From the NCBI RefSeq assembly GCF_024345795.1, contig NZ_JAGQBU010000008.1, positions 1-64,000 of the forward strand: a stretch of 64,000 nt of DNA. The letters run 5' to 3'. Positions 4,955 to 44,151 of the stretch are shown in pieces. Position numbers and translations under genes: made by a program. Positions within the stretch are counted from its first letter, which is position 1; every line of letters starts with the position of its first letter. The DNA comes from Synechococcus sp. J7-Johnson. Lineage in GTDB: Bacteria > Cyanobacteriota > Cyanobacteriia > PCC-6307 > Cyanobiaceae. The notes beneath the pieces were generated by a model. It was given only the letters and a program-made list of their open reading frames with translations, was not told the origin of the DNA and made no database searches.

Positions 4955-5215
<261 letters not shown>

Positions 5216-5216
<1 letters not shown>

Positions 5217-5662
5217 TGCTTTACGTCGATACCTGCGTGCTGCTGGCGGCTCTCACACCGGAGGCCCACTCCGATACCGCAGCGGCCTTTCTCGAGCAGG
5301 CCACAGCACCACTGGCAATCAGCCCCTGGAGTGCCACCGAGCTCCATTCCGCTCTCGGGCTCAAGGTGCGCACCAAGGCCCTGACCCCGCCAGAGGCCGA
5401 GGCGGTGCTGCTGGGCTTTGAACGCAGCCTGGCCCCAGGCCTTCTGATGCTGGAGGTGGAACCGCAGGACTTCCGTAATGCGAATGCCGCTCTGCGCGGC
5501 TGGACCACGGCCTTGCGGGCGTCCGATGCGCTGCACCTGGCGATCGCCTCCGGACGGGGCGCCACCCTTTGCAGCCTGGATGCCCCGTTTGTGCTGGCGG
5601 CCCAACAACTGGGGCTCGATGCCCAGTTGATTGGGGCTAACTCAACCTCCGTTCAGACCTGA
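5216..5662 (+). CDS. PIN-domain toxin (VapC-like ribonuclease)
   Basis: 148 residues with the PIN acidic quartet: D5 in MLYVDTCVLLAAL, E42 in SATELHSALG, and RASDALHLAIA plus CSLDAPF near the C-terminus. VapC toxins cleave specific RNAs, often tRNA or rRNA. Here the partner antitoxin is Phd-type, a known mix. Its last 10 bp overlap the 3' end of the convergent helicase gene. Confidence 0.85.
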
Positions 5663-7387: not shown

Positions 7388-10084
7388 ATGGCCACCGATG
7401 TTCTTGCGGCGGCCAGTGGCCGCTGGAGCGAAATCCTTGAGGCACTGGCCGCTCTGCCCCCCGAACAACTGAGCAACCGCCATCAGCCCTGCCCTATCTG
7501 CGGCGGCAGGGACCGCTACCGCTTTGATGACCGGGATGGCAGCGGCTCCTGGTTCTGCAACCAGTGCGGCGGCAAGGACCACATGGGTGGCGGTGGCTCC
7601 GGGATGGACCTGCTGATGCGGGTCCGCCACTGGAGCTTTCGCCAGGCCTGCGAGGAAGTGGAACGCCATCTGGGCCTGGTGCCCGAACCTGATCAACGAC
7701 ACCGGCCTCAGGCCAGCGCTTCCTCCAATGGCTCATCCGGCAGACCAGCAGCGGCATCGGCTGCCGGCCTCCCCGGCCATGGCGGTCGGCCCTGGCGGCA
7801 GCCCGAACTGCCTCCAGCCGATGCACCCCCGCCTGCTCTGGAGCAGGGCGCCATCGCCCAGTGGTGCTACCGCGATCCGGCCGGCGCCCAGCTGTTCTGG
7901 ATTCAGCGCCTCTGCTCCGGCCGCAGCGGTCGCAAGGCTTTCCTGCACCGCGTCTGGCTCGATGGCGGCTGGCACCGGCCCAGCCGCCGCGACCCCTTTT
8001 CCTGTGAGTGGCCTGCGCCCCGGCCCCTCTACGGCCTTCATCACCTGGTCGCCCGCCCGGAGGCACCGGTGCTGGTGGTGGAAGGGGAAGGCACAGCCGA
8101 TGCGACAGCGCTGCTCTTCCCGCATCACGTGGTGATCAGCTGGCCCAACGGCACCAACGCCACCGCCAAGGCCGACTGGAGTCCGCTGGCGGGGCGATCG
8201 GTGACGCTCTGGCCCGATGCCGATGCACCGGGCCGCAAGGTGATGCAACGCCTCGCCCCCCTTCTGGCAGAGCAGGGCTGCCTGGTGCAGCTGGTGGAGC
8301 CGCCGGCCGAGTTGCCGCAGGGCTGGGATTTGGCCGATGCCGACTGGACGCCGGCGGAGGCGGCTGAGCGCCTGCAGGCATGGCTCATGCCCTTGCCGGC
8401 TGATGAGGCAGAAGGAAGCACGGGTCATGCGGCCGCTGACAGCAGGGCTTCCGGCAGCGAGCCCCCGCCCCCCACTGGCCGCGCAGCTCCGTTTCAGTGC
8501 CTTGGCTACGACAGCGAGGCGAACTACTACCAGCCCAGCAGCACCGGTCAGATCCTGCGGCTGGGCCGCTCCTCTCACACGGCAACCCAATTGGTGGCCC
8601 TTGCTCCGCTGCGCCACTGGGAGACCCTTTACCCGAGCCGCACAGGCGTGAACTGGGCGGCGGCGGCCAGCGACCTGCACGAGCGCTCCGCCGCCACCGG
8701 GATGTTCGCCCCGGAGCGCATCCGCGGCCGTGGTGCCTGGTGGGACAGCGGGCGCACCGTGCTGCACCTCGGTGACCGCCTGATCACCCCGGACGGGGAG
8801 CACCCGATCACCGAACCCTTCCCCTCGCGGCACATCTACCAACGCCTCAAGCGCCTCCATGGGCCCGGCGGCGTGAAGCCCCTTTCTGTGGAGGACGCGG
8901 CCGTGATCGTGAGCATCGCCAACCGCTTCCGCTGGGAGGTCCCGGCCTCCGGCACCCTGCTGGTCGGCTGGGTGGTGCTGGGCCCGATCTGCGGTGCCCT
9001 GCCCTGGCGGCCTCACCTGTGGCTCACCGCTGGTGCGGGAACAGGCAAGAGCGCGATCCTCGATCGCTTCGTGGTGCCACTGCTCGGGGACTTCGCCCTG
9101 GTGGTGAGCGGCGCGACGACGGAAGCGGGCCTGCGCCAGACGATCTGCTGCGATGCCGTGCCGGTGGTCTTCGATGAGGCCGAGAGTAACGAGAAGGGCG
9201 ATCAGCAGCGCATGCAGGCGATCCTCTCGCTGGCGCGGGTGGCCAGCAGCGAAAGCAGCGCCGCCATGCTCAAGGGTTCACCCAACGGCGAGGTGAGCCG
9301 CTACAGGGTGCGCTCGATGTTCCTGCTCAGCTCGATCGCCACCGCCCTCAAGCAGGGCGCCGACAAGAGCCGCTTCGCCCAGCTCACCCTGCGCAGCCCA
9401 AGCGACATCCCCAAGCAGGAACGGGAAGCCCATTGGGCTTCCCTGGACCGTGATCTGGACTGCCACATCACCCCGGAGCTCAGCCGGCGCCTGATCGCCC
9501 GCACCGCCGGCCTGATCCCGATGATCCGCCAGGCCGCCGGGGTCTTCACCCGTGCGGCGGCGCGGCACTTCGATTCCCAGCGCCTCGGCGATCAGTACGG
9601 CACGCTGCTGGCGGGCGCCTGGTCACTGCTCAGCGATGTGGGCCCTACAGAAGCCGAGGCCGAGCTCTGCATCGCGGCCCACGAGTGGGACAGCTACAGC
9701 CAGAGCACCGAGATCCCCGATGAGCGGCGCTGCATCCAGACGATCCTGCAGCGGCCGATACGGGTGGAGACCAATGACAAGCCGCTGACCCGCACGATCG
9801 GCGAGCTTGTGGATCTGGCCACCAGCCGCGACAGCTGCATCGAGATCTCACCGGACCTGGCCGATCAGACCCTGGCCCGCCATGGGCTGCGGGCCGAGCC
9901 GGACCGCCTCCTGGTGAGCAACACCGCCAAGGCGATCGAGCAGATCCTCGCTGACACCGCCTGGGTGAACAGCTGGCCGGTGGTGCTCTCCCGGCTGCCT
10001 GGAGCAGTGCGCTCCGGCCCCGTGCGCTTCCGCGGCGCGGGGATGGTCACCCGCGCCGTTGCGGTTCCCCTCACTTCCCTGTGA
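7388..10084 (+). CDS. Phage primase-helicase (Zn ribbon, Toprim, P-loop ATPase)
   Basis: 898 residues. The N-terminus carries a primase zinc ribbon (C35-x2-C38 ... C57-x2-C60). A Toprim segment VLVVEGEGTADA (about 228) with LWPDADAPG follows, matching bacterial-type primase cores. A Pro/Ser-rich linker leads to a DUF927-like helicase/ATPase part with Walker A TAGAGTGKS (about 547-555) and a Walker B-like VVFDEAES. Such fused proteins prime and unwind DNA in phages and plasmids. Last long gene before the repeat-rich gap 10081-10351, a candidate replication origin. Confidence 0.85.
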   Translation: MATDVLAAASGRWSEILEALAALPPEQLSNRHQPCPICGGRDRYRFDDRDGSGSWFCNQCGGKDHMGGGGSGMDLLMRVRHWSFRQACEEVERHLGLVPEPDQRHRPQASASSNGSSGRPAAASAAGLPGHGGRPWRQPELPPADAPPPALEQGAIAQWCYRDPAGAQLFWIQRLCSGRSGRKAFLHRVWLDGGWHRPSRRDPFSCEWPAPRPLYGLHHLVARPEAPVLVVEGEGTADATALLFPHHVVISWPNGTNATAKADWSPLAGRSVTLWPDADAPGRKVMQRLAPLLAEQGCLVQLVEPPAELPQGWDLADADWTPAEAAERLQAWLMPLPADEAEGSTGHAAADSRASGSEPPPPTGRAAPFQCLGYDSEANYYQPSSTGQILRLGRSSHTATQLVALAPLRHWETLYPSRTGVNWAAAASDLHERSAATGMFAPERIRGRGAWWDSGRTVLHLGDRLITPDGEHPITEPFPSRHIYQRLKRLHGPGGVKPLSVEDAAVIVSIANRFRWEVPASGTLLVGWVVLGPICGALPWRPHLWLTAGAGTGKSAILDRFVVPLLGDFALVVSGATTEAGLRQTICCDAVPVVFDEAESNEKGDQQRMQAILSLARVASSESSAAMLKGSPNGEVSRYRVRSMFLLSSIATALKQGADKSRFAQLTLRSPSDIPKQEREAHWASLDRDLDCHITPELSRRLIARTAGLIPMIRQAAGVFTRAAARHFDSQRLGDQYGTLLAGAWSLLSDVGPTEAEAELCIAAHEWDSYSQSTEIPDERRCIQTILQRPIRVETNDKPLTRTIGELVDLATSRDSCIEISPDLADQTLARHGLRAEPDRLLVSNTAKAIEQILADTAWVNSWPVVLSRLPGAVRSGPVRFRGAGMVTRAVAVPLTSL

Positions 10085-10374: not shown

Positions 10375-11061
10375 ATGCTGACCAGCACCTGGCTCGATCC
10401 GATCCCCGGCCTGTGGCGGGAGGAGGCTGCCCACCGCTACTGGCTGGGTGAGCACCTGTTCCCGGTGTCGATCACTGGCGTGCTGGCCCATGGCCTCAGC
10501 GCCACCGCCCGCAAGGCGATTGCGGCCAAACGGCCGATCTGGGAACCACGCGGCACCACCGTGCACACGGCCCTGGAGCACTACAGCCAGGCCCGCTTCC
10601 TGGTGGGCCGGAGCCCTGAGCAGGCCCTTTTGGCCATCGAGGAGCTGCCGGGGCACCACCGGTACCGGGACTGGATCCTGCCGCTGCTGCAGCTGCCCCT
10701 CTGGGACGAGGTGCAGGTGATCGCCAGCGAACGGCTCAGCTGCTGCCTCACCCGCAACCTGGCTGGGGGCTTCGATGGGGCCTATGCGTCACCGGCGCTC
10801 AGTGAGCGCTGGGGCCGCGAGGTGAGGGTGCTGTACGACCTCAAGACCCTCTCGGCCCATGGCCGGCCCTATTCCACCGCTGCCCAGCTGGGGGGCTACA
10901 TGGTGCTGGAGGCTGCCCAGGGAAACCACTACGACCTGGGCCAGACGCTCTGGAGCAAGCCGGGCGAGGCAACTCCCAGCACCTTCTACAGCCGAGAGCA
11001 GTGCCTGGCGGCCTGGGCCGCCGCCTGGAGCAGCTACTGCCTGGCCCGCAGGCCCTTCTGA
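10375..11061 (+). CDS. PD-(D/E)XK exonuclease, RecB/Cas4-like
   Basis: 228 residues. HTALEHYSQARF, GGFDGAY (metal-binding Asp), VLYDLKTLSA (D-x-K) and AAQLGGYM form the ordered motifs of RecB/Cas4-like PD-(D/E)XK nucleases. In phages such enzymes are the 5'-3' exonuclease partners of annealing proteins; the ERF-like gene at 2729 and ssDNA-binding gene at 1907 would complete the set, though on the other strand. Starts ATG at 10375 directly after the repeat cluster. Confidence 0.75.
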   Translation: MLTSTWLDPIPGLWREEAAHRYWLGEHLFPVSITGVLAHGLSATARKAIAAKRPIWEPRGTTVHTALEHYSQARFLVGRSPEQALLAIEELPGHHRYRDWILPLLQLPLWDEVQVIASERLSCCLTRNLAGGFDGAYASPALSERWGREVRVLYDLKTLSAHGRPYSTAAQLGGYMVLEAAQGNHYDLGQTLWSKPGEATPSTFYSREQCLAAWAAAWSSYCLARRPF

Positions 11062-11559: not shown

Positions 11560-12078
11560 ATGCCGCCCTGGTCCGCTGCACCGACTCCAGATCCGATCGA
11601 GGAACTGCGCTCCGCTGCCAACGCAGAGGATGACGACGGCCAACCGCTGTATGAACCGACGGATCCGGCCAGGCCGATCGGGCACGCCAATCCTCCCCGC
11701 CGGCCCAGGGGCATCGCCACACAACGGCCGCCGAGGCCCTCGCGGCTTGAGGTCGAACGTCGCATCGCCGAGGCGCAGTTGTGGATCGCCCAGCGGATTC
11801 CGCTGGTGTTGATCTACGAAAAAGGTCGTGAAAGCTGGGGGGTGAACAACAGCCAGACGATCAACAGGTATCTCAACCTCGCGCGCGAACGGATGGTTGA
11901 GGAGCTGATCTCCGATCGCAAGCGTCACCAGGCCGAGCAGATCTACGCCCTGATGGATTGCGCCCGCCGTGCTGCGGACGCCGAGCAGTTTTCTGCTGCC
12001 GTCGGTGCCCATCGGGTGATCGCTGAAATCGCCGGGATGCTGCGCGCCCCTGCCAAGCCGTATTCGGAGCGGCCATGA
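11560..12078 (+). CDS. Terminase small subunit-like protein
   Basis: 172 residues with a disordered, Pro/Arg-rich N-terminus, a central HTH-like region (RLEVERRIAEAQLWIAQRIP, then NNSQTINRYLNLARER) and an Ala-rich C-terminal helix. Position directly before, and 4-bp overlap with, the large terminase make it the likely DNA-recognition subunit that picks the packaging site. Sequence similarity of small subunits is generally weak, so the call is mainly by context and size. Confidence 0.6.
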   Translation: MPPWSAAPTPDPIEELRSAANAEDDDGQPLYEPTDPARPIGHANPPRRPRGIATQRPPRPSRLEVERRIAEAQLWIAQRIPLVLIYEKGRESWGVNNSQTINRYLNLARERMVEELISDRKRHQAEQIYALMDCARRAADAEQFSAAVGAHRVIAEIAGMLRAPAKPYSERP

Positions 12079-13730
12079 CGCCGCTGATGCCACCCTCCAC
12101 TGCCCTGCTTACCTGGGCCGGTCGCCCTGTCGATGGGGGCCTGCTCCATGGCCCGTACCACCCGGACCCCTGGGCTGACCCCGGTGTGCTGGCCTACCGC
12201 GATCCCGACGCGCTCACCGCTGGTGCAGGGCCGCTTTCCCTGGAGCAGTTCATCGCCCTGGCCTATCCCCGCTATGCATTCCACCGCTGGGCACAGGTGC
12301 TGATTGCCCTGCTGCAAGCCATCGCCGATGGCGAGCTGAGCCGGCTGATCGTCACCTGTCCGCCGCGGCTGGGAAAATCGCTCTTGGTTTCCAAGCTGTT
12401 CCCCGCCTACTTCATCTACCGCCACCCCCATCTGTTCGCCGCCATCGCCAGCTACTCCGGGGAACTGGCCTACGCCCATTCCAGGGAGGCTCGGCACTAC
12501 TACCGGGTCACCGGCAATCCGCTCTCGAAGGATTCAGCGGCGGTCGGCAACTGGCTGACGCCCGAGCGTGGTGGCTGCATCGCTGCCGGTGTGGATGGAC
12601 CCTTCACGGGCAAGGGCTACTCGCTCGGCATCATCGATGACCCCTACAAGGGCCCGGCCGATGCCGGCTCCGCCCGGGTGCGGCAGCGCTTGGTGGAGTG
12701 GATCAAGGCCGTCTGGTTCCTGCGCGCCGAACCGCAGTTCATTGAGGCCGGCAAGGGAGCCCTGCAGCGCAACCTCTCGGCTCAGGTGATCGTGCTCACC
12801 CGCTGGGACCACGAGGACCTGATCGGCTGGCTGCTTCAAGAGGAAGCCGGCGATGCCCCCCACAGCTGGCACCTGCTCAACCTGCCGGCAATCGCCGAGC
12901 ATCCGGCAGACCGGCAGACCTTCCCGCGGACCTGCACCGTCGAGCCCGACTGGCGCCGGGCCGGTGAGGCGCTCTGCCCCGAGCGCTTTCCGCTCTCGGA
13001 GCTGCTCAAGATCCGTTCCCGCTCCGGTTCGTACTGGTGGCAGGCGCTGTACCAGCAGCGCCCTTCCCCGGCCACCGGTTCAATCTTCCTGCGCCAGTGG
13101 CTGCGCCCGCCCTTCCCTCGCAGCAAGCCACGTCGCTATGCGCCCCTGGTGCTCTCCTGCGATCTGTCCTTCAAGGGGGAGGAGGACTCCGACCACTGCG
13201 GCTTTGTGCTGATGGGGCTGCTGGCACCGGAGCTCGCCCAAGGCGAGACCCAAAGGGCCGGACCCCAGCGGGGCGGGCCCCAGGCCAAGGCCAGCCCGCA
13301 GGAGCTGGAGATCGAGGTGCTCTGGGCGGCGCGGCATCGCTTCGGGTTGCCGGAGACGATCCGCTTTCTGCTCTCCTCCCTCGCGGCCCTCCACCACCAG
13401 GGCCTCAAGCCCGACGCGGTGCTGATCGAGGACGCCGCCAACGGTCCTGCGGTGCTGCAGATGCTGCGCCGCAAGGTACCGGGCCTGCTGCCGATCCCGG
13501 CGCGGGGCAGCAAGACCTTCCGCGCCCATGCCGTCGCGCCGCTGCTGGAGGCCGGCCAGGTTCGTTTTCACCCCCGCGCCAGTCAGCTCACCGAGGAGCT
13601 GCCGCGCTTCCCGAAAGGGTCGAAGGATCTGGTGGATGCCTTCGGGCATGGGGCCCTGTGGCTTGAGACCCGCTACTGGCGCGGCCTGGGCATCAAGCGT
13701 GATCCGCTGCCGATGCTGCTGACGCGTTGA
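12075..13730 (+). CDS. terL: Terminase large subunit
   Basis: 551 residues. ATPase part: Walker A CPPRLGKS (95-102, an atypical P-loop frequent in TerL) and Walker B LGIIDDP (184-190), plus LTRWDHEDL. Nuclease part: LSCDLSFKG (first acidic residue), VLIEDAANG and KDLVDAFGHGA supply the RNase H-like metal ligands. It cuts and pumps phage DNA into the procapsid through the portal. A Gly/Gln/Pro-rich insert (about 389-412, RAGPQRGGPQAKASPQE) between strands is unusual. Overlaps TerS by ATGA. Confidence 0.92.
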   Translation: MTPLMPPSTALLTWAGRPVDGGLLHGPYHPDPWADPGVLAYRDPDALTAGAGPLSLEQFIALAYPRYAFHRWAQVLIALLQAIADGELSRLIVTCPPRLGKSLLVSKLFPAYFIYRHPHLFAAIASYSGELAYAHSREARHYYRVTGNPLSKDSAAVGNWLTPERGGCIAAGVDGPFTGKGYSLGIIDDPYKGPADAGSARVRQRLVEWIKAVWFLRAEPQFIEAGKGALQRNLSAQVIVLTRWDHEDLIGWLLQEEAGDAPHSWHLLNLPAIAEHPADRQTFPRTCTVEPDWRRAGEALCPERFPLSELLKIRSRSGSYWWQALYQQRPSPATGSIFLRQWLRPPFPRSKPRRYAPLVLSCDLSFKGEEDSDHCGFVLMGLLAPELAQGETQRAGPQRGGPQAKASPQELEIEVLWAARHRFGLPETIRFLLSSLAALHHQGLKPDAVLIEDAANGPAVLQMLRRKVPGLLPIPARGSKTFRAHAVAPLLEAGQVRFHPRASQLTEELPRFPKGSKDLVDAFGHGALWLETRYWRGLGIKRDPLPMLLTR

Positions 13731-13733: not shown

Positions 13734-14303
13734 ATGGATCAACTCGCGCTGCCGATCACGATCGTTGCTCCGCCAACTAAGCGGTGCTCTCGCTGTCGCC
13801 TTCGTGCTGCCTCACATCCTCAACAGGGTGATGAGCAGCTCTCCCTCAGCCTCCGGCCCTGCCGCCCGCGGCCACGTCGACACCGGCCGAGTAACCCGAA
13901 CGCCGCGGCACACGCCCTGGCGCTGGCGCACCTGGATCTGGCGGACAAGATCGCCGGCAACTTCGCCCGCCGCACCACCCATTCCTTTGATGATCTGCGC
14001 CAGCTCGCGGTGATCGGATTGCTCAAGGCTGCCGCTCGCTTCGATGGCACGGGCGGGCGTTCGTTTCGCCCCTACGCCCGCACCTACGCCAACGGCGAGA
14101 TCACCCACTACTTGCGGGACCACGGCTTTGCGATCAAGGTGCCCCCCTCCTGGCGCGATCTCTACGCCAGTGGGCAGAAGTTTTTGCGGGAGGGGCTGCC
14201 GCCCCATGCGGTGCCGGAGCGGCTGGGGATCACGGCCGAGCGCTGGCGGGAGATTCAGGACGCTTGTTCGATCACGGTGATTGCGCTGCAGCCGGATACC
14301 TGA
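13734..14303 (+). CDS. Phage-encoded small sigma factor lacking region 4
   Basis: 189 residues. After a Cys/Arg-rich N-terminal ~50 residues, residues about 60-130 (LADKIAGNFARRTTHSFDDL, RQLAVIGLLKAAARFDG, FRPYARTYANGEITHYLRDH) match sigma-70 region 2, with region 3-like sequence to about residue 180. The protein ends before any region 4. Such a factor could contact core polymerase and a -10-type element but not a -35 element. It sits between TerL and the head genes, where phage late-transcription factors are common; a repeated TGGCAAT(A/G)G box precedes several late genes. The link is inference. Confidence 0.75.
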   Translation: MDQLALPITIVAPPTKRCSRCRLRAASHPQQGDEQLSLSLRPCRPRPRRHRPSNPNAAAHALALAHLDLADKIAGNFARRTTHSFDDLRQLAVIGLLKAAARFDGTGGRSFRPYARTYANGEITHYLRDHGFAIKVPPSWRDLYASGQKFLREGLPPHAVPERLGITAERWREIQDACSITVIALQPDT

Positions 14304-14446: not shown

Positions 14447-15007
14447 TCACGCAACAGCTATGAACAAGCCAATAAGAAAGACAAGCATCGAAAGAACAAT
14501 CAACGTCTTGGCGCCTTTCAGGCAGTCTGCGTAGAAATCTGCTCTACAGCCCAAGTCCGTGATCACCTCATGAAACATCTTCCGAGTTCTTAGATCAAAG
14601 AAATCCGACCTAATGTAATCATCAAGATCTACTACTTTAGAAATGGTGATAGACAAAGGCTGTAATGACAAAAGTATGCCGAGAATTGCAATTATTAAAC
14701 ATGCAAGCAATATGCTCTTTGGATATTGAGTCGACAGGATGCCGGTGAGGCTATAAAGGCCTGCCAAGACCGATTGCAATGACAGCAAACCTCCTAGCTT
14801 TGTTTGTAGTAGAGCGATCTTAGTTGTGGCTTGCTCGTGCAAGAACAGTGCCAACTCCCAATGATTGGGCCTATCAGTATAACAAGGATCATTGTCATAT
14901 CGACAGTTGCTTACCTCGCTAATCCTTACGTTTCCCTCCGGGAACAAGAGGATCCTGAGGAGCATAAAGACTATTCGATCCGAAAACCATCCAACCCACC
15001 TATTCAT
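14447..15007 (-). CDS. Membrane protein of the cassette block
   Basis: 186 residues with three hydrophobic helices: about 80-95 (LLSLQSVLAGLYSLTGIL), 99-118 (ILLACLIIAILGILLSL) and the C-terminal 165-185 (LIVLSMLVFLIGLFIAV). The arrangement resembles small SLATT-like or Pycsar/CBASS-type effector membrane proteins only in general shape; no family is claimed. Its first base overlaps the ATP-grasp stop (ATGA). Base composition is clearly AT-richer than the phage genes on either side. Confidence 0.6.
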   Translation of the reverse strand: MNRWVGWFSDRIVFMLLRILLFPEGNVRISEVSNCRYDNDPCYTDRPNHWELALFLHEQATTKIALLQTKLGGLLSLQSVLAGLYSLTGILSTQYPKSILLACLIIAILGILLSLQPLSITISKVVDLDDYIRSDFFDLRTRKMFHEVITDLGCRADFYADCLKGAKTLIVLSMLVFLIGLFIAVA

Positions 15008-15897
15008 GGCTGAACATCTAAATTAGCAAAGAAGAAATTCGATGCGCTATACTCAAGGAACTCGTCCATCCATACCCATTGGCCATTTGGATTATTCTCA
15101 AGGAAGAACCAACTCCCATCTTTAGTGACAACAAAATCAGATGTACAGAAGCGAAGACCGTTCTTTCTCATCAAGTGGATATATCCTTCTGCCACGCTAG
15201 AAGGTGGCTCAAGTATCTGATACTGGATGTGTTCCATCTCATTTCTGCGGACATCTAATGGCCCACCGTACAACCCAATGAATAGCGTACTCCCATTTAA
15301 GTATACCGTCCTTACGTCAAAGGCTTTCTCCAGCCTTTTCTGAATAAGCGTAGGACACAGGCCAATCAAGGATAGGTTGGTATCAGAAGACTTAAGTTCG
15401 TTCGTATAAATGTGCCAGGATTGTTCTCCGTGTGTAACGTAGCCGCAATCTATAGGCTTAAGAATACATTTCCACTCATGCTCCTCTATAAATCTTTTTG
15501 CTTCAGTAACTTTGTTTGTGATCACCCATTCTGGGGTTAGGAGGCCACAGTCGTGTGCCAGCATTAACTGGGTAGCTTTCTTGTCAGCCATCCAGTTGTG
15601 GGTCGGGAAATTTATCCATTTGTGGATTGGGATCTGCATCATCAGGTTCCACATGGCCTCCTCTATTTCCGCTAGCCGCAATTTTTCTCCAACTGATGTC
15701 GGAGTCGCATTATTCTCGAACGGCCTTCTATACCAAAGAAAATCTATATCAGAGAAGGGCTTGGGCTGATTGCTTCCAATTGTGAATACGGGTACGTCGT
15801 CTGAATTGATCACTACGCATGTAAGCCAATCAGGTGCCCTTTGAACAATATGAGCTACCGTAGCGTCTGAAGAATTACTCCAAATGCATAGCTTCAT
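15004..15897 (-). CDS. ATP-grasp ligase, graspetide (MvdC/D-like) maturase
   Basis: 297 residues with the layout of ATP-grasp RiPP maturases: LWYRRP (54-59), KWINFPTHNWMADKKATQLM (93-112), WKCILKPI (ATP-binding Lys), VRTVYLNG, then the C-terminal metal/ATP site SDFVVTKDGSWFFLENNPNG followed by QWVWMDE. Members such as MvdC, MvdD and PsnB use ATP to form ester or amide links between Ser/Thr/Lys and Asp/Glu side chains of a precursor peptide. It is coupled by ATGA overlaps to a small upstream ORF and a downstream membrane protein. Substrate is not known; the family call is by motif order. Confidence 0.7.
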   Translation of the reverse strand: MKLCIWSNSSDATVAHIVQRAPDWLTCVVINSDDVPVFTIGSNQPKPFSDIDFLWYRRPFENNATPTSVGEKLRLAEIEEAMWNLMMQIPIHKWINFPTHNWMADKKATQLMLAHDCGLLTPEWVITNKVTEAKRFIEEHEWKCILKPIDCGYVTHGEQSWHIYTNELKSSDTNLSLIGLCPTLIQKRLEKAFDVRTVYLNGSTLFIGLYGGPLDVRRNEMEHIQYQILEPPSSVAEGYIHLMRKNGLRFCTSDFVVTKDGSWFFLENNPNGQWVWMDEFLEYSASNFFFANLDVQP

Positions 15898-16160
15898 AAA
15901 GGCTTAAATGAAATAAGTGATCTGTCTGGTGCCTCTTTTGAGACATCTGTCCTGGTCTTTAATCCCTGAAACTCAAACCCATATGATCTCATGCGTGTAA
16001 CGTATTTGTCGGGTGATTCGCCTGATGTGCGCGTAACAGTCTTGGTCACACTGGATACATTGGATCTTGCTGCCACTAATTCCAAAAAGCACTCAAGCAA
16101 GCATTTGGCCTGTGAGTCGCAACCTTCCTGACCACTTAGGTTGTTGTCGTAGTGCGCCAA
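15894..16160 (-). CDS. Candidate RiPP precursor or small partner protein
   Basis: 88 residues from a TTG start (16160), overlapping the ATP-grasp start by 4 bp. N-terminal half has Cys and acidic residues and a short amphipathic helix; the C-terminal half is rich in possible cross-link residues (Ser, Thr, Lys, Asp, Glu), e.g. GLKTRTDVSKEAPDRS. This suits a precursor peptide for the ATP-grasp enzyme, but the usual microviridin leader motif PFFARFL is absent and no core repeat is seen. An internal ATG would give a 32-residue peptide ending in the same C-terminus. A good sigma-70 promoter lies just upstream. Confidence 0.45.
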   Translation of the reverse strand: MAHYDNNLSGQEGCDSQAKCLLECFLELVAARSNVSSVTKTVTRTSGESPDKYVTRMRSYGFEFQGLKTRTDVSKEAPDRSLISFKPL

Positions 16161-16189
16161 TCGCTTACCGCATGAATCTGCAAGAATAA

Positions 16190-16218
16190 AGTGTAGTGTG
16201 TTTTGCTTATTTTGTCAA
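16190..16218 (-). promoter_or_regulatory. Sigma-70-type promoter of the ATP-grasp cassette
   Basis: On the minus strand, TTGACA (16218-16213), a 17-bp spacer and TACACT (16195-16190) form a strong vegetative promoter about 30 bp upstream of the first cassette gene. A host-type promoter implies expression independent of phage late transcription. Confidence 0.65.
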
Positions 16219-16275
16219 TTACACTGGCATTCACATTTTTTTGGACGGAGGTCCTTCGTCTGCTGGTTGCTCGCA

Positions 16276-16370
16276 GCCTGCACAATGCTGCCCTTGAGTG
16301 GCAGGCAAGGAGGCTGAGGTTGCGGTGCAGAGAGCTGATGGCGGCCTGTCCACTGGAGGGGCTTGTTGGC
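16276..16370 (-). repeat. attC-like imperfect palindrome 2
   Basis: Minus-strand arms GCCAACAAGCCCCTCCAGTG and the complement of GCCTGCACAATGCTGCCCTT (continuing GAGTGGCAGGC) pair through CCCT-n2-AGTGG and CAGG with one extrahelical A, a hallmark of attC sites. Length 95 bp; begins 14 bp after the stop of the gene at 16384, in the same orientation as the element at 14319. The end motifs match RYYYAAC/GTTRRRY imperfectly. Confidence 0.45.
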
Positions 16371-16383
16371 TGGTGCTACCCAG

Positions 16384-17340
16384 TCAATCACCACGCATCT
16401 TTCTAATAACGCGCTCAAGTACATTATTGGGAAATAAGCGATAGCGAATTGTGCAGTCTTTCGCAACCCCAGCTTCGAGATGGCAATCAGCTTTTAGTAT
16501 TGGAGGTGACTGTATGACACCAGCCTGAATCAATGCAGCGACTAGAGATCCTAAGGTCAGAAAGATGATTGCCCCCTGAATTCTCATCGATTGCCTGTGG
16601 CGTTGTCTTGATTGTTGAATTTCACTAAGACTTTTAAATGCGCCTGGCAAGACTCTGTATTTATAATCAGCGGTAGGCTGAAGATCCCCGGTAACAGCAA
16701 GTGAGCCAAGAAGATACTCAGTCCTCTTCCTCGCGCTGTTTGCCCCTGGATGTAAATACCAGCGATAATTATACATACTAGTCAGGACAGCGCCAGAATC
16801 AAATGTTGATCCAGAGACGGCGTATTCATCTACCACGTACTCAAGCAACTTATCTCTATCGATCTCAAGCTGGCTTCGCTGATTAAAAAGGGTTCTTGAG
16901 AGATGAGCCCATATTCGCCTCAAGGCTAATAATAGGTGAGGAACCCGACTTAATTCACCGAGCCAGAAATGAGAAGCGCTACTGTATTCAATCTCGCTCG
17001 GTCCAATGTAGTGGACTATCTTCAGGCTGAGCGTTGCCGCATAGGGAGTCTGAACACGTATGATCCCGGCATACCTATGCTGGTCTTGATACCAGAGTTT
17101 TCCCTGGATATGAGTATCTCCCATGTCAGTCACTAGCAAATAAGGCCTTTCCTCATCATCAATTAGCGTCGAAAAACAATTGACTTGATCAGCAGCTTTG
17201 CCGGATCGAGGGATCCGGCTTGGACACTGCTTTGCGAGGGACATCCTTAGACAGGATTTAAAAAGCAGCAGGCTGATTCTCATCATTAAGCCTATGACTA
17301 GCCTTTTGGGCCACATTGTCGGCGATGATGTTGTTGTCAA
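16384..17340 (-). CDS. Unknown protein with C-terminal membrane helix
   Basis: 318 residues. An N-terminal hydrophobic/basic stretch (about 12-35) and one clear membrane helix near 250-275 (IQGAIIFLTLGSLVAALIQA) frame a soluble middle part with WYQDQHRYAGIIRVQTPYAA and many aromatic residues; a short Cys-containing tail follows the helix. No known domain recognised. AT-rich codon use matches the neighbouring ATP-grasp unit and not the phage genes. It ends next to an attC-like element, suggesting it is a separate cassette. Start uncertain. Confidence 0.55.
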   Translation of the reverse strand: MTTTSSPTMWPKRLVIGLMMRISLLLFKSCLRMSLAKQCPSRIPRSGKAADQVNCFSTLIDDEERPYLLVTDMGDTHIQGKLWYQDQHRYAGIIRVQTPYAATLSLKIVHYIGPSEIEYSSASHFWLGELSRVPHLLLALRRIWAHLSRTLFNQRSQLEIDRDKLLEYVVDEYAVSGSTFDSGAVLTSMYNYRWYLHPGANSARKRTEYLLGSLAVTGDLQPTADYKYRVLPGAFKSLSEIQQSRQRHRQSMRIQGAIIFLTLGSLVAALIQAGVIQSPPILKADCHLEAGVAKDCTIRYRLFPNNVLERVIRKMRGD

Positions 17341-17673: not shown

Positions 17674-19422
17674 GTGCGGATCCCCTGGACGCCGTGCAGA
17701 ACGCGGCTGGGGGAAAGGTTCCGCCGTTGGAGTCCGTCTGATGCCAGCCATGGGGGCACTCTCATTGGCACCCACCGGCTGGTAATAGTCCTCAGCAGCA
17801 ACAGGCGCTTGGCCTCCAGGAGTCGCAACCGATCCCGCAACAAGTGGCTGCCGCTCTCTCCGCCCGAGGCGCAGGCCCTGGCGGCGGTAGGCAGCGCCCC
17901 GCTGCTGCAGCCCTGGCGTGAGCACGCCACCCTCCGCTCCCTGCGTGAGCAGTTGCAGCTCTGCTTTGACTGTTGGAACCTGCTAGAAGCACCCGGCGGC
18001 ACCAGCCGCCGCAGCGTCTACCTGCCGCCTGGCGCCAAGGAGCCTGACGCCAACTACCGCAACCGGGTGGAGAACGCCCGCCCTAGCGGCTTCTTCCGTG
18101 ATGCGCTGCGCACCTACGCAGGGATGCTCTCCTTCCTGGAGTACCTGGCCCTGCCGCCCTCGCTGCAGCGGGTGATCTCCGATGTGGATGGGCGCGGCAC
18201 CGACCTCGGGGTGTTCCTGTTCATCGCCGATCTGCTGGTGCTGCGTGATGGCGGCTGCTTGATCCTGGTGCTGCCGCCCCTGCGGGGCTGGCCATCGGAA
18301 GGCCACTGGCTCGAGGCGATCCGCCGTGGTGATCGGCTCTCGCTGCCCCGTCTCTCGCTGGTACCGCGTGGTGATCTGCTGGATTGGCATCTGCCCAGCC
18401 CCGACAGCCCACCACATCGGATCAGTTGGCGTCAGGACCGCAGGGCACCGCAGCCGCCGCTCTATGACAGCGCCATCCCGGCGCATCACCTCGGCCCTCT
18501 GGGTCTGGGCCCGGCTGGTGCCGATGGCGTCACATCGCCACGGCTCGAGGACTGGCTGTACCACCAGGCGACCCTCGGTGATGACGGCCTGGCCGTCGAA
18601 ACCTTCGCTGCCGTGCCCAAAAGCGCTGCCGCCAGCGGGTACTCCGCCCAACGGCTCGGCCCGCCGCTGCTTCTGCCCCGTCAACACACCATGCCGGTGG
18701 TCTGGTACGCCGCTGATGGGGCGGCCTTTGGCGAGGGCGATCTGCCCCACCTGGGCCTCGCGAACCAGTATCTCACCCACTACAGGCTCAAGAGCGAGTA
18801 CGAGGACCTGCTCAGCCGCTGCGCCCTGCCGGTGGGGGTCCGCAGCGGCCTGGTCGATCAGTACGGCTTCCAGCGCAGCGAGGACGGCGAACCCCGCCCT
18901 CCAGAGCAGCTGGTGCTCTCCACCTCCACCTTCATGGACCTACCCGAGGGGGCGGACTTCAACTGGAAGGAGATCCGCGCCCGCTCGCTCGCCGAGCACC
19001 GCGCCTACCTGACCCTGCTGGATGAAACCATGCGCCGTGATGCGCTGGTGCCGACCCAGAACCGTGGCGCTGGCCGCAGCGAAACCGAGATTTCACTCAC
19101 CGCTGGCCAGGCCTACGCCTTGCTGCAGTCGCTGGCCACCCAGAAGACCTCGGTATTCGCAACGGTGCTGGAGCACTGGTGCTCGCTCACCGGTGACAGC
19201 CTGGTGCCAGGCGCCGGCCTGGCGCTGACCGTGACGCCGCTCACCCCGCCGCTGCGGCCCCAGCCGTCGGTGGGCGAGTGGCTCACGCTGCATGAACGCG
19301 GGGTGATCAGCACCGCTGAGCTGCGCCACCAGCTCTCTCTCGCCGCTGCACCGGGTGTGGTCAACCCGATCAGCGGCTCGGCGACGGAATCGTTCGCCGT
19401 TCCCTGCCCGCAGCACAGCTGA
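17674..19422 (+). CDS. Portal protein, DUF4055-like
   Basis: Up to 582 residues. From about residue 70 (TLRSLREQLQLCFDCWNLLE, YLPPGAKEPDANYRNRVENA, then FFRDALRTYAGMLSFLEYL) it follows the DUF4055 portal-like family, with a C-terminal helical region (AEHRAYLTLLDETMRRDALV ... AGRSETEISLTAGQAYALLQ). The portal forms the ring through which TerL packages DNA. The first ~55 residues are Arg-rich and unlike the family, so the true start is probably downstream at a non-ATG codon; the cassette block may have replaced the original 5' end. Overlaps the next gene by one base. Confidence 0.75.
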   Translation: MRIPWTPCRTRLGERFRRWSPSDASHGGTLIGTHRLVIVLSSNRRLASRSRNRSRNKWLPLSPPEAQALAAVGSAPLLQPWREHATLRSLREQLQLCFDCWNLLEAPGGTSRRSVYLPPGAKEPDANYRNRVENARPSGFFRDALRTYAGMLSFLEYLALPPSLQRVISDVDGRGTDLGVFLFIADLLVLRDGGCLILVLPPLRGWPSEGHWLEAIRRGDRLSLPRLSLVPRGDLLDWHLPSPDSPPHRISWRQDRRAPQPPLYDSAIPAHHLGPLGLGPAGADGVTSPRLEDWLYHQATLGDDGLAVETFAAVPKSAAASGYSAQRLGPPLLLPRQHTMPVVWYAADGAAFGEGDLPHLGLANQYLTHYRLKSEYEDLLSRCALPVGVRSGLVDQYGFQRSEDGEPRPPEQLVLSTSTFMDLPEGADFNWKEIRARSLAEHRAYLTLLDETMRRDALVPTQNRGAGRSETEISLTAGQAYALLQSLATQKTSVFATVLEHWCSLTGDSLVPGAGLALTVTPLTPPLRPQPSVGEWLTLHERGVISTAELRHQLSLAAAPGVVNPISGSATESFAVPCPQHS

Positions 19423-21030: not shown

Positions 21031-21048
21031 TGGCAATAGCTGGGGTGA
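21031..21048 (+). promoter_or_regulatory. TGGCAATAG box before scaffold gene
   Basis: TGGCAATAGCTGGGGTGA lies 55 bp before the ATG at 21086. The same 18-mer occurs at 57456, with shorter versions before other late genes; candidate phage late promoter. Confidence 0.5.
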
Positions 21049-21085
21049 GTGCAGCCCGGATGGGGCGCTCCCTTCAACCACAGCC

Positions 21086-21967
21086 GTGATGGGTGGACCG
21101 ATGACCAAACGCCTTCCTCAGGACCTCCGCGTCCTGCAGCAACCGACCGTCGAGCATCAGCAGCTCGTCAGCTACGCGCAGCCGCAGCACTGGCCCAACC
21201 AGGAGCTGCCTGCTCAGCCCGAGCCAGAAGACGACGACCTCGAGGATGACGACCTCGACCCGGATGAGCCCCTGGATGAGCCCGGCGAGGAAGTCGAGGC
21301 TTCCCGCTCCGAACCATCCGATGCGCTCAAGGCCGAGCGGCGCAAGACCAACCAGCTGGAGCGGGAGCTGCGCACGATCAAGCGGCAGCTCGCCCAGTTC
21401 TCCAAGATCAACCCCGACGAGTACGAGCGTCTCCAGGAGGCCGAGCGGCAGAAGGAGCAGCTGGAGCGCGAGATCGCCAGCCGTGAACTCCAGCTCGAGG
21501 CTGCCGCCGCCCGCAAGGTGAAAGCCGCTGCCAAGGAACGCGACGAGGCGCTCCAGGACGTGCAGAACCTGCGCAAGGAACGTCTTTTGGAGCGGCTGTT
21601 CGTCGATGCCGATGGCCGCGCCGGTGGTGACAACCGCGGTTCCTTCTTTGAGATCTTCAAGCACCAAGTGGGCGGTGAGTTCCGCCTCACCAAGGACGGC
21701 GCCGGGCGTGACCTGCTGGAGCCGATCGACTCCAAGGGCAACGTGCTGCTCGGCGATCACGGCAACCTCGATGCCGCCGATCACATCGAGTCGCTCCGCA
21801 CCCATCCGGTGCTCAGCTTCCTGTTCAACCAGCGCGGCGGCCTCGGCCCCGCCACGGTGATCGCCGAGTTCGATGGCAACGGCCAGCCGACCAACCTGCA
21901 GAGCATGAGCGCCAGCGAGCTCTACCTGGCCAGCTACGCCAAGAAGCCAGCCGGCGCCAGGCGTTGA
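21086..21967 (+). CDS. Scaffold-like coiled-coil protein
   Basis: 293 residues. Acidic N-terminal region (EPEDDDLEDDDLDPDEPLDE), a long coiled coil at about 75-175 (ALKAERRKTNQLERELRTIK ... LEREIASRELQLEAAAARKV) and a compact C-terminal region. Acidic-coiled-coil-basic layout between portal and capsid genes is typical of scaffold proteins that shape the procapsid. Unusually, the capsid gene is not next but 32 kb away. An alternative start at 21101 is possible. Confidence 0.65.
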   Translation: MMGGPMTKRLPQDLRVLQQPTVEHQQLVSYAQPQHWPNQELPAQPEPEDDDLEDDDLDPDEPLDEPGEEVEASRSEPSDALKAERRKTNQLERELRTIKRQLAQFSKINPDEYERLQEAERQKEQLEREIASRELQLEAAAARKVKAAAKERDEALQDVQNLRKERLLERLFVDADGRAGGDNRGSFFEIFKHQVGGEFRLTKDGAGRDLLEPIDSKGNVLLGDHGNLDAADHIESLRTHPVLSFLFNQRGGLGPATVIAEFDGNGQPTNLQSMSASELYLASYAKKPAGARR

Positions 21968-24749: not shown

Positions 24750-25439
24750 TCAGTTGATGCGTTGATCGAGCAAGCGCAGTACTGCCTGGGTGCGGTTGGC
24801 GACCCCCAGCTTCTGCATGATTCCGTGGCCGTGCACGCGCACCGTGCCAAGGCTGATGCCTAGAGCGTCAGCGATCTGCTGGTTGCTCCAGCCCTGCCCC
24901 ATCGCCTTGAGCACCTCCAGCTCCCTAGGGGTGAGCAGCTCCAAAGCTGGGGTGTCCTGAAGGGTTCGATTGCCAGGCACTTCATTCAGGATTTGCCCGG
25001 GGGCGACCTGAGGGGACCCCAAGGGGAGCTCCAGATCCCGCAAAGCCGCTGTGGCCATGGCATCCCACCAGGATGCTCCCCGCAGCAGGGTTTCGATCGC
25101 CAGTTGCAGGTCGTGGGCCGAGACGCCTTTGCACACGTAGCCGCGGGCGCCCGTCAGGAGCAAGCGCCGACAGGCGGCGGGGTCCTCCTGGCTGGTAATC
25201 ACCAGCACCGGTAGCTCCGGGTGATCACTGGCGATCCGCCGGCAGGTTTCTAGCCCCCCCAGCCCTGGCAGCCCCAGATCCAGCAGCACCACGTCCACCG
25301 CTTGCCGGCGCAGTAGTTCCAGGGCCTGTTCGCCGTCACTGGCGGTGAGAACGCCAGTGACCTGCTCAAAGGCGGCCAGGGTGATCTCCAGCCCAAGGCG
25401 AAACAGCTCGTCGTCTTCGACCACCAGGCAAAGGGCCAT
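24750..25439 (-). CDS. NarL/FixJ-family response regulator
   Basis: 229 residues. Receiver domain 1-120 with acidic pocket ED9-D10, phospho-acceptor D54 in VVLLDLGLPGLGG, and K at about 104; LuxR-type HTH at 165-229 (LLTPRELEVLKAMGQGWSNQ, then IADALGISLGTVRVHGHGIM). Receives phosphate from the kinase encoded directly upstream (1-bp gap). The pair lies head-to-head with kdpA, so it is a good candidate regulator of kdp in place of KdpE, which is not seen. Confidence 0.9.
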   Translation of the reverse strand: MALCLVVEDDELFRLGLEITLAAFEQVTGVLTASDGEQALELLRRQAVDVVLLDLGLPGLGGLETCRRIASDHPELPVLVITSQEDPAACRRLLLTGARGYVCKGVSAHDLQLAIETLLRGASWWDAMATAALRDLELPLGSPQVAPGQILNEVPGNRTLQDTPALELLTPRELEVLKAMGQGWSNQQIADALGISLGTVRVHGHGIMQKLGVANRTQAVLRLLDQRIN

Positions 25440-25440
25440 C

Positions 25441-26568
25441 TCAATCGTCCTTGGCCAGGATGGGCAGGTCCACCTCGATTACCGCCCCGCCCCCAGTCCG
25501 GTTGCGCAGAGAGATCGTGCCGCCATGGGCGCTGACGATCTGGCGGCAGAGGTAGAGGCCCAGGCCACTGCCCTGGCGATCTGCCGAGAGCCGGTGAAAG
25601 CGCTGGAACAGATTGGGAAGTTCCTGCTCAGGAACCCCGGGTCCATGGTCAATCACCTGGAGCCGGTGGGCGGAGCCCAAGCTCGCCAGAGTCACAAGGA
25701 TCTGGCCGCCGCGCAGGCTGTGGTGGATCGCATTGAGCAGCAGGTTTTCGATCATCCGCCGCAGCTGCACGGGGTCGGCTACCAAGGTGTGCGCCTGCCG
25801 CTGGCCGCTGCCCATGAAGGTCAACCGAATCGTCAGCTGCCGTTCCTGGGCCAGGGCACTCACTTCATTGATCACCTCCTCTACGAGCTGGCTCAGATCC
25901 AGGTGCTCCAGGCTTAATCGCAAGCCCTCGGCGTCGTTCCCGTAGACCTCAAGCAGGGTCTGGATCTGGCGCAGCGCGCGGGTCTGGCCGCGCTCGATCG
26001 TAGAGATCGCCCGGCTCAGCAGCGCTCCATCGGGGCGTTGCTGCTCCCCCAGAAGCTTTGTGGTGGCGATCGTGCCGAGGATCGGGGTTTTGAGGTCGTG
26101 GGCCAGGGTAGCGACGAAGTCGCTGCGCAGATCCTCAACGCTAAGGCGCGCCTGGAGATCCAGCCGTTGACGCTGCAGGGCCTGAACCCGTAGGCATTGG
26201 CCCGCGGTGACGAGCAGGGCGCCGCAGACCAGAAGCCGGTTGACGACGACGGGCCCTTCCAGGGTCACGGGAGGAGGCAGCACCAGGTTGAGCAGGGTGA
26301 GCACGCAGACCAGCAGCGCGTAAGCCCAGAGCGTGCGCGCCGAAGCCGTGGTGCCCAGGCGCAGCATCGGGATCACGTAGAGCGTGCCGAACACAATGTC
26401 TTGCGGCGTCACGAATTCCAGGAGGGCGACGGCCAACGTCATCACCGACACCTGGCCGACAGCGGCGCTCATGAGTCCTATGTCCTTGGGTATAGAGCGC
26501 GTTGCCCGATTCATACCCACCGGCAGATGCGGACGCTCCAGCGCCCGCCGCAAAGTGACAGAGATCAC
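25441..26568 (-). CDS. Membrane sensor histidine kinase
   Basis: 375 residues. Four membrane helices at about 33-125 (VSVMTLAVALLEFV, IVFGTLYVIPML, LWAYALLVCVLTLLNLVL, RLLVCGALLVTAG), a coiled coil, HisKA with H157 in LAHDLKTP, N-box NLLLNAIHHS, G1 DHGPGVP and G2 GSGLGLYLC. The short membrane part resembles KdpD/DUF4118-type sensors in having four helices close together, but no KdpD N-domain is fused. Start uncertain: ATG at 26568 leaves only 20 bp to kdpA; ATG at 26514 is plausible. Confidence 0.88.
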   Translation of the reverse strand: MISVTLRRALERPHLPVGMNRATRSIPKDIGLMSAAVGQVSVMTLAVALLEFVTPQDIVFGTLYVIPMLRLGTTASARTLWAYALLVCVLTLLNLVLPPPVTLEGPVVVNRLLVCGALLVTAGQCLRVQALQRQRLDLQARLSVEDLRSDFVATLAHDLKTPILGTIATTKLLGEQQRPDGALLSRAISTIERGQTRALRQIQTLLEVYGNDAEGLRLSLEHLDLSQLVEEVINEVSALAQERQLTIRLTFMGSGQRQAHTLVADPVQLRRMIENLLLNAIHHSLRGGQILVTLASLGSAHRLQVIDHGPGVPEQELPNLFQRFHRLSADRQGSGLGLYLCRQIVSAHGGTISLRNRTGGGAVIEVDLPILAKDD

Positions 26569-30358: not shown

Positions 30359-30464
30359 GCTGCCGCGCCATTCAGGCCGCTCCGCTCAGGCCGATCCGCG
30401 CCTGCTGCTGATCCACGCCCCCAACTGACTCCCCGCCAATCCATCACCCAACCTTCCCCGACCC

Positions 30465-30665
30465 ATGGCTTCTTCGTCTGGTCTCCTGAGTAAACCGCTG
30501 TTCTGGCTGCCCCTGGTGCTGGCCCTGGGCACGGCATTGGCCGCACCCCTGTTCGGCTCCAGCCCCAGCCCTCTGCAGACCACCGCCCTTGCCCTGCTGC
30601 TCACCGGCACCGTGGTGCTCTCGGGCTATCTGTTCGTTGTGATCTTTCAACCGGAGCGTTTCTGA
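30465..30665 (+). CDS. kdpF: KdpF-like subunit with extra membrane helix
   Basis: 66 residues; the C-terminal half (LLLTGTVVLSGYLFVVIFQP, then ERF) matches KdpF, a ~30-residue stabilising subunit. An additional N-terminal hydrophobic segment (FWLPLVLALGTALAAPLF) makes it twice the E. coli length. Located between kdpB and kdpC; its stop overlaps the kdpC ATG (TGATG). Confidence 0.75.
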   Translation: MASSSGLLSKPLFWLPLVLALGTALAAPLFGSSPSPLQTTALALLLTGTVVLSGYLFVVIFQPERF

Positions 30666-31243
30666 TGTCCTTCCTGCGAGAGGGCTTCAAGGCCCTGCGC
30701 CTCACCGCCGCGCTCTGGCTGCTCACCGTGGTGCTCTACACCCTGCCGCTGCTGGCTGTGGGCCAGGGCCTGTTCCCCGCCCAGGCCAACGGCAGCCTGC
30801 TGCGCAACGAGAGTGGCCAGGTGCTGGGATCGACCCTGATCGGCCAGCCCTTTGCCTCCGATCGCTACTTCTGGAGCCGTCCGAGCGCCGTCGACTACAG
30901 CACCGGCAAGGCGGCACCGACCTCCGCCCCCAGCAACCTGGGCCCCACCAACCCTGATCTGGTGAAACGGATCAAGGACATGGCCGCTACCTACGCCCAG
31001 GCGGGCATCGCCAAGCCCGCCGCTGATCAGCTGTATGCCTCCGGTTCGGGTCTCGATCCCCACATCTCTCCGGAAGCGGCGCGTCAGCAGATCCCGAGGC
31101 TGGCCGCGGCCCGAGGAGTTCCTAGCAACCGGCTGGAGCCGCTGATCCAGCGCCACACCCAGGGCCGGTTCCTTGGCTTCATCGGTGAGCCGGGCGTGAA
31201 CGTGCTGGCGCTCAACAACGCCCTCGATCAGATCAAGCCGTGA
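30665..31243 (+). CDS. kdpC: K+-transporting ATPase subunit C
   Basis: 192 residues with one N-terminal membrane helix (LTAALWLLTVVLYTLPLLAV) and periplasmic/soluble domain containing SDRYFWSRPSAVDYSTGKAA, SGSGLDPHISP and NVLALNNALD, all KdpC landmarks. Acts as a chaperone-like subunit raising ATP affinity. GTGA overlap with the next gene. Confidence 0.95.
   Translation: MSFLREGFKALRLTAALWLLTVVLYTLPLLAVGQGLFPAQANGSLLRNESGQVLGSTLIGQPFASDRYFWSRPSAVDYSTGKAAPTSAPSNLGPTNPDLVKRIKDMAATYAQAGIAKPAADQLYASGSGLDPHISPEAARQQIPRLAAARGVPSNRLEPLIQRHTQGRFLGFIGEPGVNVLALNNALDQIKP

Positions 31244-40891: not shown

Positions 40892-44151
<3,260 letters not shown>

Follow-up and report, generated by a model that had tools for sequence, protein, structure and literature searches.

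In phage T4, gp55 is a region 2 sigma factor with a clamp-binding motif at its C terminus, gp33 is a mimic of sigma region 4, and the late promoters have no upstream element (PMC2988020, PMC7892883). Contact of the coactivator gp33 with the clamp is essential for activation (PMC2988020, PMC7892883), and a review describes involvement in transcription as a role unique among clamps to that of T4 (PMC9690074). We found no clamp-binding sigma factor outside the T4-type phages in the openly licensed PubMed Central literature that we searched. Promoters of cyanobacterial SigF require the sequence TAGGC at −32 and GGTAA at −12 (PMC2758279). In SigO/RsoA of Bacillus subtilis, one subunit has region 2 without region 4 and works with a partner that carries region 4. 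A group 3 sigma factor was noted in the cyanophage P-SS2 in 2009, when the promoter search was for sigma-70 (PMC2784084), and the main text of that paper contains neither "region 4" nor "clamp." For the bacterial clamp DnaN, the consensus binding pentapeptide is QL[S/D]LF, and QLSLPL from Hda is a tight binder (2025 paper, PMC12309361).

The window, by which we mean the whole stretch of 64,000 nucleotides that was analyzed, belongs to a 3.0-Mb genome. It carries a short phage sigma gene directly behind the terminase genes.

11560 to 12078, plus strand: candidate small terminase, assigned by position, with no significant family match.
12075 to 13730, plus strand: large terminase TerL, directly upstream of the sigma gene, an adjacency preserved in relatives.
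13734 to 14303, plus strand: truncated group 3 (SigF-like) phage sigma factor of 189 amino acids, identified from Pfam, NCBIfam, alignment, AlphaFold2, and relatives.

The sigma open reading frame (ORF) starts three bases past the end of TerL (13730) and is the final gene of a replication and packaging run, where it follows a primase (7388 to 10084), a nuclease-like gene (10375 to 11061), the candidate small terminase, and TerL. This run reflects our own gene calls, made with a simple caller, and the start codons are approximate. The sigma gene is also placed after the large terminase in relatives, and of 37 loci compared, all 37 have the sigma family, 36 have TerL, and 31 have the portal. The closest relatives of the sigma protein come from Cyanobium and Synechococcus genomes, and a second copy with 82% identity is present in the same genome as the window. 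A genome search gave sigma matches at an E value of ≤1e-15 in 52 of the 201 genomes of the family, although some of the weakest of these matches may be host sigma factors. One genome (G148) had ten matches at this threshold on ten contigs, and many related prophages or remnants may coexist there.

Pfam analysis of the sigma protein recognized Sigma70_r2 only (PF04542; E = 3e-11), and an AlphaFold2 model predicted a second domain behind it.

13923 to 14126, plus strand: sigma region 2, residues 64 to 131 (Pfam PF04542).
14145 to 14267, plus strand: predicted sigma-3 three-helix bundle, residues 138 to 178 (AlphaFold2 model; the protein ends at residue 189).

We aligned 29 of the 37 sigma-family members, from clades A, A2, and B, in an alignment designated A1 (L015, L017, L021, L023, L027, L028, L038, and L047 were left out). 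All 29 sequences, including the window's sigma, matched region 2, and none of the 29 gave a Pfam match to region 3 or region 4. Missing Pfam matches alone do not prove that region 4 is absent because, of two host sigma factors used as controls, one (L003, 318 amino acids) showed regions 2 and 4 but the other (L004, 328 amino acids) showed region 2 only, even though it is full-length. The argument therefore rests on the missing length past region 3 and not on Pfam alone. The top NCBIfam profiles for the protein were SigF and SigB/F/G, all below their cut-offs, with the SigF match spanning residues 65 to 178. In the AlphaFold2 model, sigma-2 was confident (helices from 57 to 129) and three helices stood in the place of sigma-3, while the pLDDT was below 50 at residues 1 to 40 and 182 to 189. 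VIA-align 2 placed sigma residues 49 to 189 on residues 364 to 511 of Escherichia coli sigma70 (rank 2), and the structure matches that span both domains end at E. coli sigma70 residues 501 to 512, which we take to be the start of region 3.2. These two-domain matches had root mean square deviations of about 6 to 12 Å versus 1.1 to 1.4 Å over 69 to 78 residues for sigma-2 alone, and it is possible that the larger values come from a different placement of the domains. The model thus places the end of the protein near the expected start of the region 3.2 finger or linker.

The end point of the protein is shared by its relatives. We compared 79 distinct ORFs (identity of ≥45% across >90 residues), of which 77 have only 10 to 23 residues after the region 3 cysteine; the two exceptions are L141, which has in-frame stops, and L063, in which the reading changes within region 3. 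These comparisons show that the truncation is conserved in the lineage at the level of sequence. We also considered a hidden region 4, which was ruled out by the profiles, by structure matches that end with sigma-3, and by the absence of further sequence. A first-pass annotation had described a 189-residue protein with region 2 and part of region 3 but no region 4, lying in a packaging operon. The first part held by profiles, predicted structure, and relatives, and the check proposed for it, a profile search with structure prediction, returned region 2 only by Pfam, a predicted sigma-3 bundle, and no divergent region 4; the position directly after TerL, here and in relatives, is consistent with the second part.

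The N terminus of the sigma protein, which is predicted to be disordered, contains two motifs of the DnaN-binding type.

13740 to 13757, plus strand: first clamp-binding motif, QLALPI, residues 3 to 8, with Q and L invariant in the 29 rows of A1.
13836 to 13853, plus strand: second clamp-binding-like motif, QLSLSL, residues 35 to 40.

Up to the basic stretch that lies at residue 49, A1 has only two invariant columns, Q3 and L4, and L6, P7, R22, Q35, and L36 are conserved in at least 90% of the sequences. The Q-L pair is not invariant across all 37 members, since L038 has M at the place of L and L028 has no motif. Forms of the motif interchange among QLSLF, QLDLPL, QLSLPL, QLCLPL, and QLALPI, with clade A2 carrying QLSLF or QLLLF. 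In all 36 loci where both genes were called, the TerL stop codon precedes the first motif (by 10 to 102 nucleotides [nt] in 35 and by 421 nt in one), and synonymous codon changes are present within the motif. Many members have a second motif 30 to 40 residues further on (QLSLSL, QLVFAF, or QLEINL), and we therefore infer that a dimeric ring could be bound at two points. A single DnaN is present in the host.

A strict form of the motif was present in 54 of the 79 distinct ORFs, in 18 forms, and a looser form was present in 62 of 79. We compared N termini of up to 111 residues, taken from the 54 of 60 distinct ORFs that have the region 2 anchor, with other proteins, of which the first 80 residues were used; the strict motif occurred in 45 of the 54 distinct N termini versus 4 of 846 other proteins. 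It occurred in 8 of 10 clusters formed at <60% identity, and shuffled sequences gave a mean of 0.04 of 10 and a maximum of 2. The strict pattern was written after some of the sequences were known, although it agrees with the published consensus. Of the 20 prophage families that are conserved, sigma alone had the motif as a rule (28 of 37 members), and each of the others had it in no member or in one. A few members of clades A and B lack the strict motif, and clade C and some other relatives have no clamp motif although sigma and box are both present, so the motif is not universal. These results show that the N terminus carries canonical DnaN-binding motifs in most of the lineage, a conclusion about sequence for which there are no binding data. 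The motifs, often two to a protein, go beyond the first-pass annotation, as do the likeness to a SigF −12 half-site and the clade-specific box forms described below.

Several variants of the gene were seen at the edges of this lineage. L098/L063 has a sigma with an intact QLSLF N terminus, a reading shift inside region 3, and an unusual end. Short sigma-like ORFs that stop soon after region 3 and have no clamp motif were seen in other picocyanobacterial genomes (L102 to L104 and L106 to L109), and the marine relatives in which no region 4 was seen are L101 to L104 and L106 to L109.

The late genes of the window are preceded by a nine-base box.

17780 to 17788, plus strand: late box TGGTAATAG before the portal gene; the homologous position in L024, L025, L026, L030, and L084 is occupied by TGGCAATAG.
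17809 to 19422, plus strand: portal protein, start codon uncertain (phrog_145).
21031 to 21039, plus strand: late box TGGCAATAG before the scaffold gene.
21045 to 21072, plus strand: conserved leader stem-loop just downstream of the box and before the scaffold start, with relatives in alignment A3.
21101 to 21967, plus strand: head scaffolding protein (phrog_206).
54266 to 54274, plus strand: late box TGGCAATAG before the capsid gene.
54309 to 55208, plus strand: major capsid protein (phrog_212 and Pfam GP7).
57456 to 57464, plus strand: late box TGGCAATAG, 34 nt before the first tail fiber gene.
57490 to 57870, plus strand: collagen-repeat tail fiber protein, from profile matches.
58956 to 58964, plus strand: late box TGGCAATAG, 34 nt before the second tail fiber gene.
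58990 to 60252, plus strand: collagen-repeat tail fiber protein.

Counted within the window, the TGGCAATAG signal is weak, with 13 sites at ≤1 mismatch versus 8.6 expected and 5 of 100 shuffles reaching 13, and across the whole host genome it is only modestly raised (15 matches versus 9 for the reversed pattern). The signal is strong across relatives, where it is carried by position and strand rather than by genome-wide count. When we counted nine-base words without a target in the gaps before genes, requiring a word to reach 6 copies, 4 loci, and 5 contexts for clades A and B, TGGCAATAG was the top intergenic word in clade A loci, and TGGCAACAG and TGGCAAGAG were among the top gap words in clade B. 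The same counting in clade C gave CGGCAATA and GGCAATAG, tied with one other word for most contexts. We counted 86 occurrences of the combined form TGGCAAnAG in 58 loci longer than 5 kb (1.05 Mb in total, with some overlap), and within 250 nt upstream of a start, 51 occurrences pointed towards the gene and 1 pointed away. After removal of redundancy there were 30 start-proximal sites, versus a mean of 1.0 and a maximum of 6 for 300 permuted motifs. This permutation test was run on the same loci that defined the box, and 17 fresh loci (below) provide the independent check. Shared ancestry explains part of the statistics for both the box and the clamp motif, which were defined on related phages. 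A coding origin for TGGCAATAG (Trp-Gln-stop) was dropped, since 11 of 14 sites in clade A fall between genes and position 7 is C or G in the other clades.

We searched for an upstream partner of the box in 31 nonredundant sites, drawn from 73 gap sites of which 54 lie within 250 nt of a start. No conserved partner was found in these 31 sites, where the information content was ≤0.31 bit at the base adjoining the box and ≤0.20 bit elsewhere. The SigF −32 word TAGGC was upstream of none of the 31 boxes as an exact match and of 8 at ≤1 mismatch versus 6.7 in shuffled sequences. There was no clear excess of any positional hexamer upstream of the box (best 3 versus 2.5 in shuffles) or of TTGACA (2 of 31 versus 1.1 in shuffles). 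These results show a conserved late box without an upstream partner, as far as sequence by itself can show it. The stem-loop in the scaffold leader had two-sided changes in 3 of its 14 predicted pairs, each in one of 17 sequences, which fits only weakly with a transcript start near the box.

The first-pass annotation had placed a compact box before late genes, at 57456 and 58956, and had inferred a −10-only promoter. The box claim held, as TGGCAATAG is present at both places and also at 21031 and 54266, all on the plus strand; it was recovered untargeted in clade A, precedes portal, scaffold, capsid, and tail fiber genes, and was found again in 13 of the 17 fresh loci. The promoter claim has the support of sequence in that there is no conserved upstream element, with core polymerase binding and transcription remaining inferences.

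The form of the box varies with the clade of the sigma. Position 7 was T in 20 of 27 clade A and A2 sites versus 2 of 22 clade B sites (P = 7e-6) and in 5 of 10 clade C sites. Position 1 was T in none of 10 clade C sites versus 35 of 49 others (P = 3e-5), and the basal clade C group combines the box CGGCAA[T/C]AG with the absence of a clamp motif. The sequences show that box variants covary with sigma clade, and common descent of whole phages contributes to this covariation.

We wrote down predictions before fetching 24 further loci, of which 7 duplicates were set aside to leave 17. Sixteen of the 17 sigmas end at the usual place, and the remaining one (L141) is broken. The strict motif was found in 8 of 17, with the new forms QLDLPL and QLALPL, and its predicted distribution was only partly right, since it was present in 4 of the 6 loci for which we had expected it but also in 4 of the other 11. 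Thirteen of the 17 loci had boxes on the sigma strand ahead of a gene start (22 boxes versus 2 on the opposite strand), as judged with a pattern in which position 1 could be only C or T. Each of the 10 boxes next to a strict-motif sigma starts with T, whereas 9 of the 12 beside other sigmas start with C. The position 7 prediction was met by a single clade A2 locus, which agreed and is hardly a test.

The phage in the window is not T4-like, and its nearest phage terminases are those of cyanosiphoviruses. S-CRES1, S-CRES3, S-CBS2, and P-SS2 have a homologous sigma behind TerL, and their "Type III rpoS" or SigF genes share the order small terminase, large terminase, sigma. Unlike the window's sigma, the proteins of S-CRES1, S-CBS2, and P-SS2 have no N-terminal motif and have a C-terminal extension. 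The S-CRES1 sigma ends in QGSLF, the S-CRES2 protein is identical to it over its whole length, and the S-CRES3 sigma gives a full-length match. Five metagenomic relatives from IMG/VR end in QPSLF (L119) or QGSLF (L120 to L123), and L124 is truncated by the contig end. The ORF recorded for the S-CBS2 sigma (L116, 3917 to 4537) stops early relative to its relatives, and another frame reads to QGSLF. A profile scan of L119, S-CRES1, and P-SS2 found region 2 only, and weakly in L119 and S-CRES1. P-SS2 showed no clear clamp motif and no clear late box. In the loci of S-CRES1, S-CRES3, and S-CBS2 (L126 to L128), several genes are preceded by a single box of another sequence, GG[A/C]ATACTAG, often about 30 nt from the start, with GC[C/T]ATACT[A/G] elsewhere. 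A tree separated the marine, P-SS2, and S-CRES-type sequences (support, 100/99) from clades C, A, A2, and B (97/93), with A plus A2 and B each at 100/98, though the bootstrap had not settled and there was a long-branch warning. Because the tree separates these groups, the motif is N-terminal in one lineage and C-terminal in another. The S-CRES-type protein gave a low-quality structural model (mean pLDDT of 54.7), which was not used, and a second scan of viral contigs with the alignment gave no additional loci.

The window's sigma and the T4 gp55/gp33/gp45 system share a small phage sigma that has region 2 and lacks region 4 (PMC2988020, PMC7892883, PMC9690074), a clamp-binding motif at a disordered terminus, and, judged only by sequence, single-box late promoters without a −35 element. 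The differences are that the window's sigma is SigF-like with a predicted sigma-3 fold and that the T4 motif is C-terminal and serves the phage's own clamp, whereas the motif here is N-terminal, often double, and of the bacterial DnaN type. The T4 late box TATAAATA also differs from TGGCAAnAG. A Pfam scan found no phage clamp among the 29 other phage-region proteins, and we found no gp33-like sigma-4 mimic in the genes scanned and no second family with the clamp motif as a rule among the 20 prophage families, although gp33 itself is weakly conserved. The best profile matches of the window's sigma were to SigF and SigB types and to PHROG sigma families, and gp55 was not directly compared. By the features tested, it is not a member of the gp55 family. 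Its resemblance to gp55 lies in the way we propose that it works, which is inferred, as binding and transcription are untested. SigF of cyanobacteria is the best NCBIfam match (below the curated cut-off), and its −12 GGTAA resembles the GG[C/T]AA of the phage box, but its promoters also need the TAGGC that is absent at −32 of the phage boxes. Since SigF needs both elements, the phage box resembles the −12 half alone.

We consider it likely that this protein is a late sigma factor in which a tether between RNA polymerase and the host replication clamp takes the place of region 4 and the −35 element, so that late transcription is coupled to replication; clamp binding, core polymerase binding, and start sites are all inferred. 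The sigma would be made from the replication and packaging operon, its sigma-2 domain would bind the host core polymerase, and the box would serve it as a −12 element of the SigF type. Binding to the dimeric DnaN ring of the host, possibly through both motifs, would keep the sigma at promoters, and we propose this because the −35 and beta-flap contacts of region 4 are missing. Late genes would then be transcribed mainly from DNA under replication. Recognition of the box by this sigma, binding to DnaN, and coupling to replication are each inferences. A bolder reading, which we favor by a narrow margin, is a second origin, outside the T4 phages, of late transcription coupled to a clamp: a sigma of the SigF type would have lost region 4 and gained DnaN motifs, with the host ring as the only upstream anchor in the absence of gp33, and cyanosiphoviruses of the S-CRES1 type would have placed the motif at the opposite end.

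If this is true, it would be a second, separately built clamp-tethered late sigma, working on a bacterial host clamp, and region 4 and the −35 element would be replaceable by a tether to the replication ring. The system would be a small one to test, with one protein, a nine-base box, DnaN, and core polymerase. It would further point to a way in which temperate cyanophages could match late gene expression to replication and in which late modules set apart by large cargo could be activated in trans.

The alternative that survives best, though we think it unlikely, is a late sigma with a single-box promoter and no clamp coupling, in which it is enough for sigma-2 and sigma-3 to contact an extended −12 box and the QLxLxL motifs have another function. 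In its favor, clade C has a truncated sigma and the CGGCAA[T/C]AG box without a clamp motif, and the predicted sigma-3 fold is present and could read bases adjoining the box. Against it, little is conserved in the N terminus, which is variable and predicted to be disordered, except for QL, the positions that follow, and a few others; the motif alternates between two known clamp-binding forms (QLxLF and QLxLPL), and Q[G/P]SLF stands at the opposite protein end in a separate lineage.

We regard as very unlikely a split sigma in which a second protein supplies region 4. The precedent is SigO/RsoA, in which a region-2-only protein works with a partner, and a LuxR-type response regulator in the window (24750 to 25439) matches Pfam region 4 models through its helix-turn-helix. 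However, the boxes have no conserved upstream −35 element, the regulator lies in a nonphage segment beside a histidine kinase and its match is to a common helix-turn-helix, and, in contrast to SigO/RsoA, no region 4 partner was found among the phage-region genes scanned (no Pfam region 4 match in the 29 other proteins).

The box could also be a mosaic junction, a cargo insertion site, or an RNA signal heading phage modules, and not a promoter. The boxes have unrelated sequence to their left, where cargo is often found, and the box of the scaffold gene has a conserved stem-loop in the leader behind it. We give this reading very little weight, since the boxes at 57456 and 58956 lie between adjacent tail genes without cargo, the boxes precede several unrelated leaders, and box variants change along with the sigma clade. 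A decayed or inactive sigma remnant, suggested by the shortness of the protein and by the large nonphage segment interrupting the prophage, was rejected and is all but excluded by the end point conserved in 77 of 79 relatives and a strongly conserved core.

The surroundings of these genes in the window yielded further observations. A large nonphage segment (22000 to 54200) splits the structural genes between scaffold and capsid. It includes a sensor kinase and the LuxR-type response regulator (24750 to 26472) adjoining a kdp operon (26589 to 32370; kdp assigned by eye). Within the same phage-bounded segment there is a putative type III restriction-modification system (MTase_III and REase_III) with a DrmD-like helicase (38045 to 47451), next to which lies an ArdC-type antirestriction protein with a metallopeptidase domain (47653 to 48600). 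Between sigma and portal (14447 to 17340) there are minus-strand genes without a clear family, apart from one weak ATP-grasp match, and this region may be a cargo site. Gene pairs that resemble toxin-antitoxin systems by eye are found at 4995 to 5662, 49314 to 49945, 50174 to 50895, 52580 to 53088, and 53200 to 53842. A BRO-family (Bro-N) protein, a common phage antirepressor type, is encoded on the minus strand at 826 to 1602.
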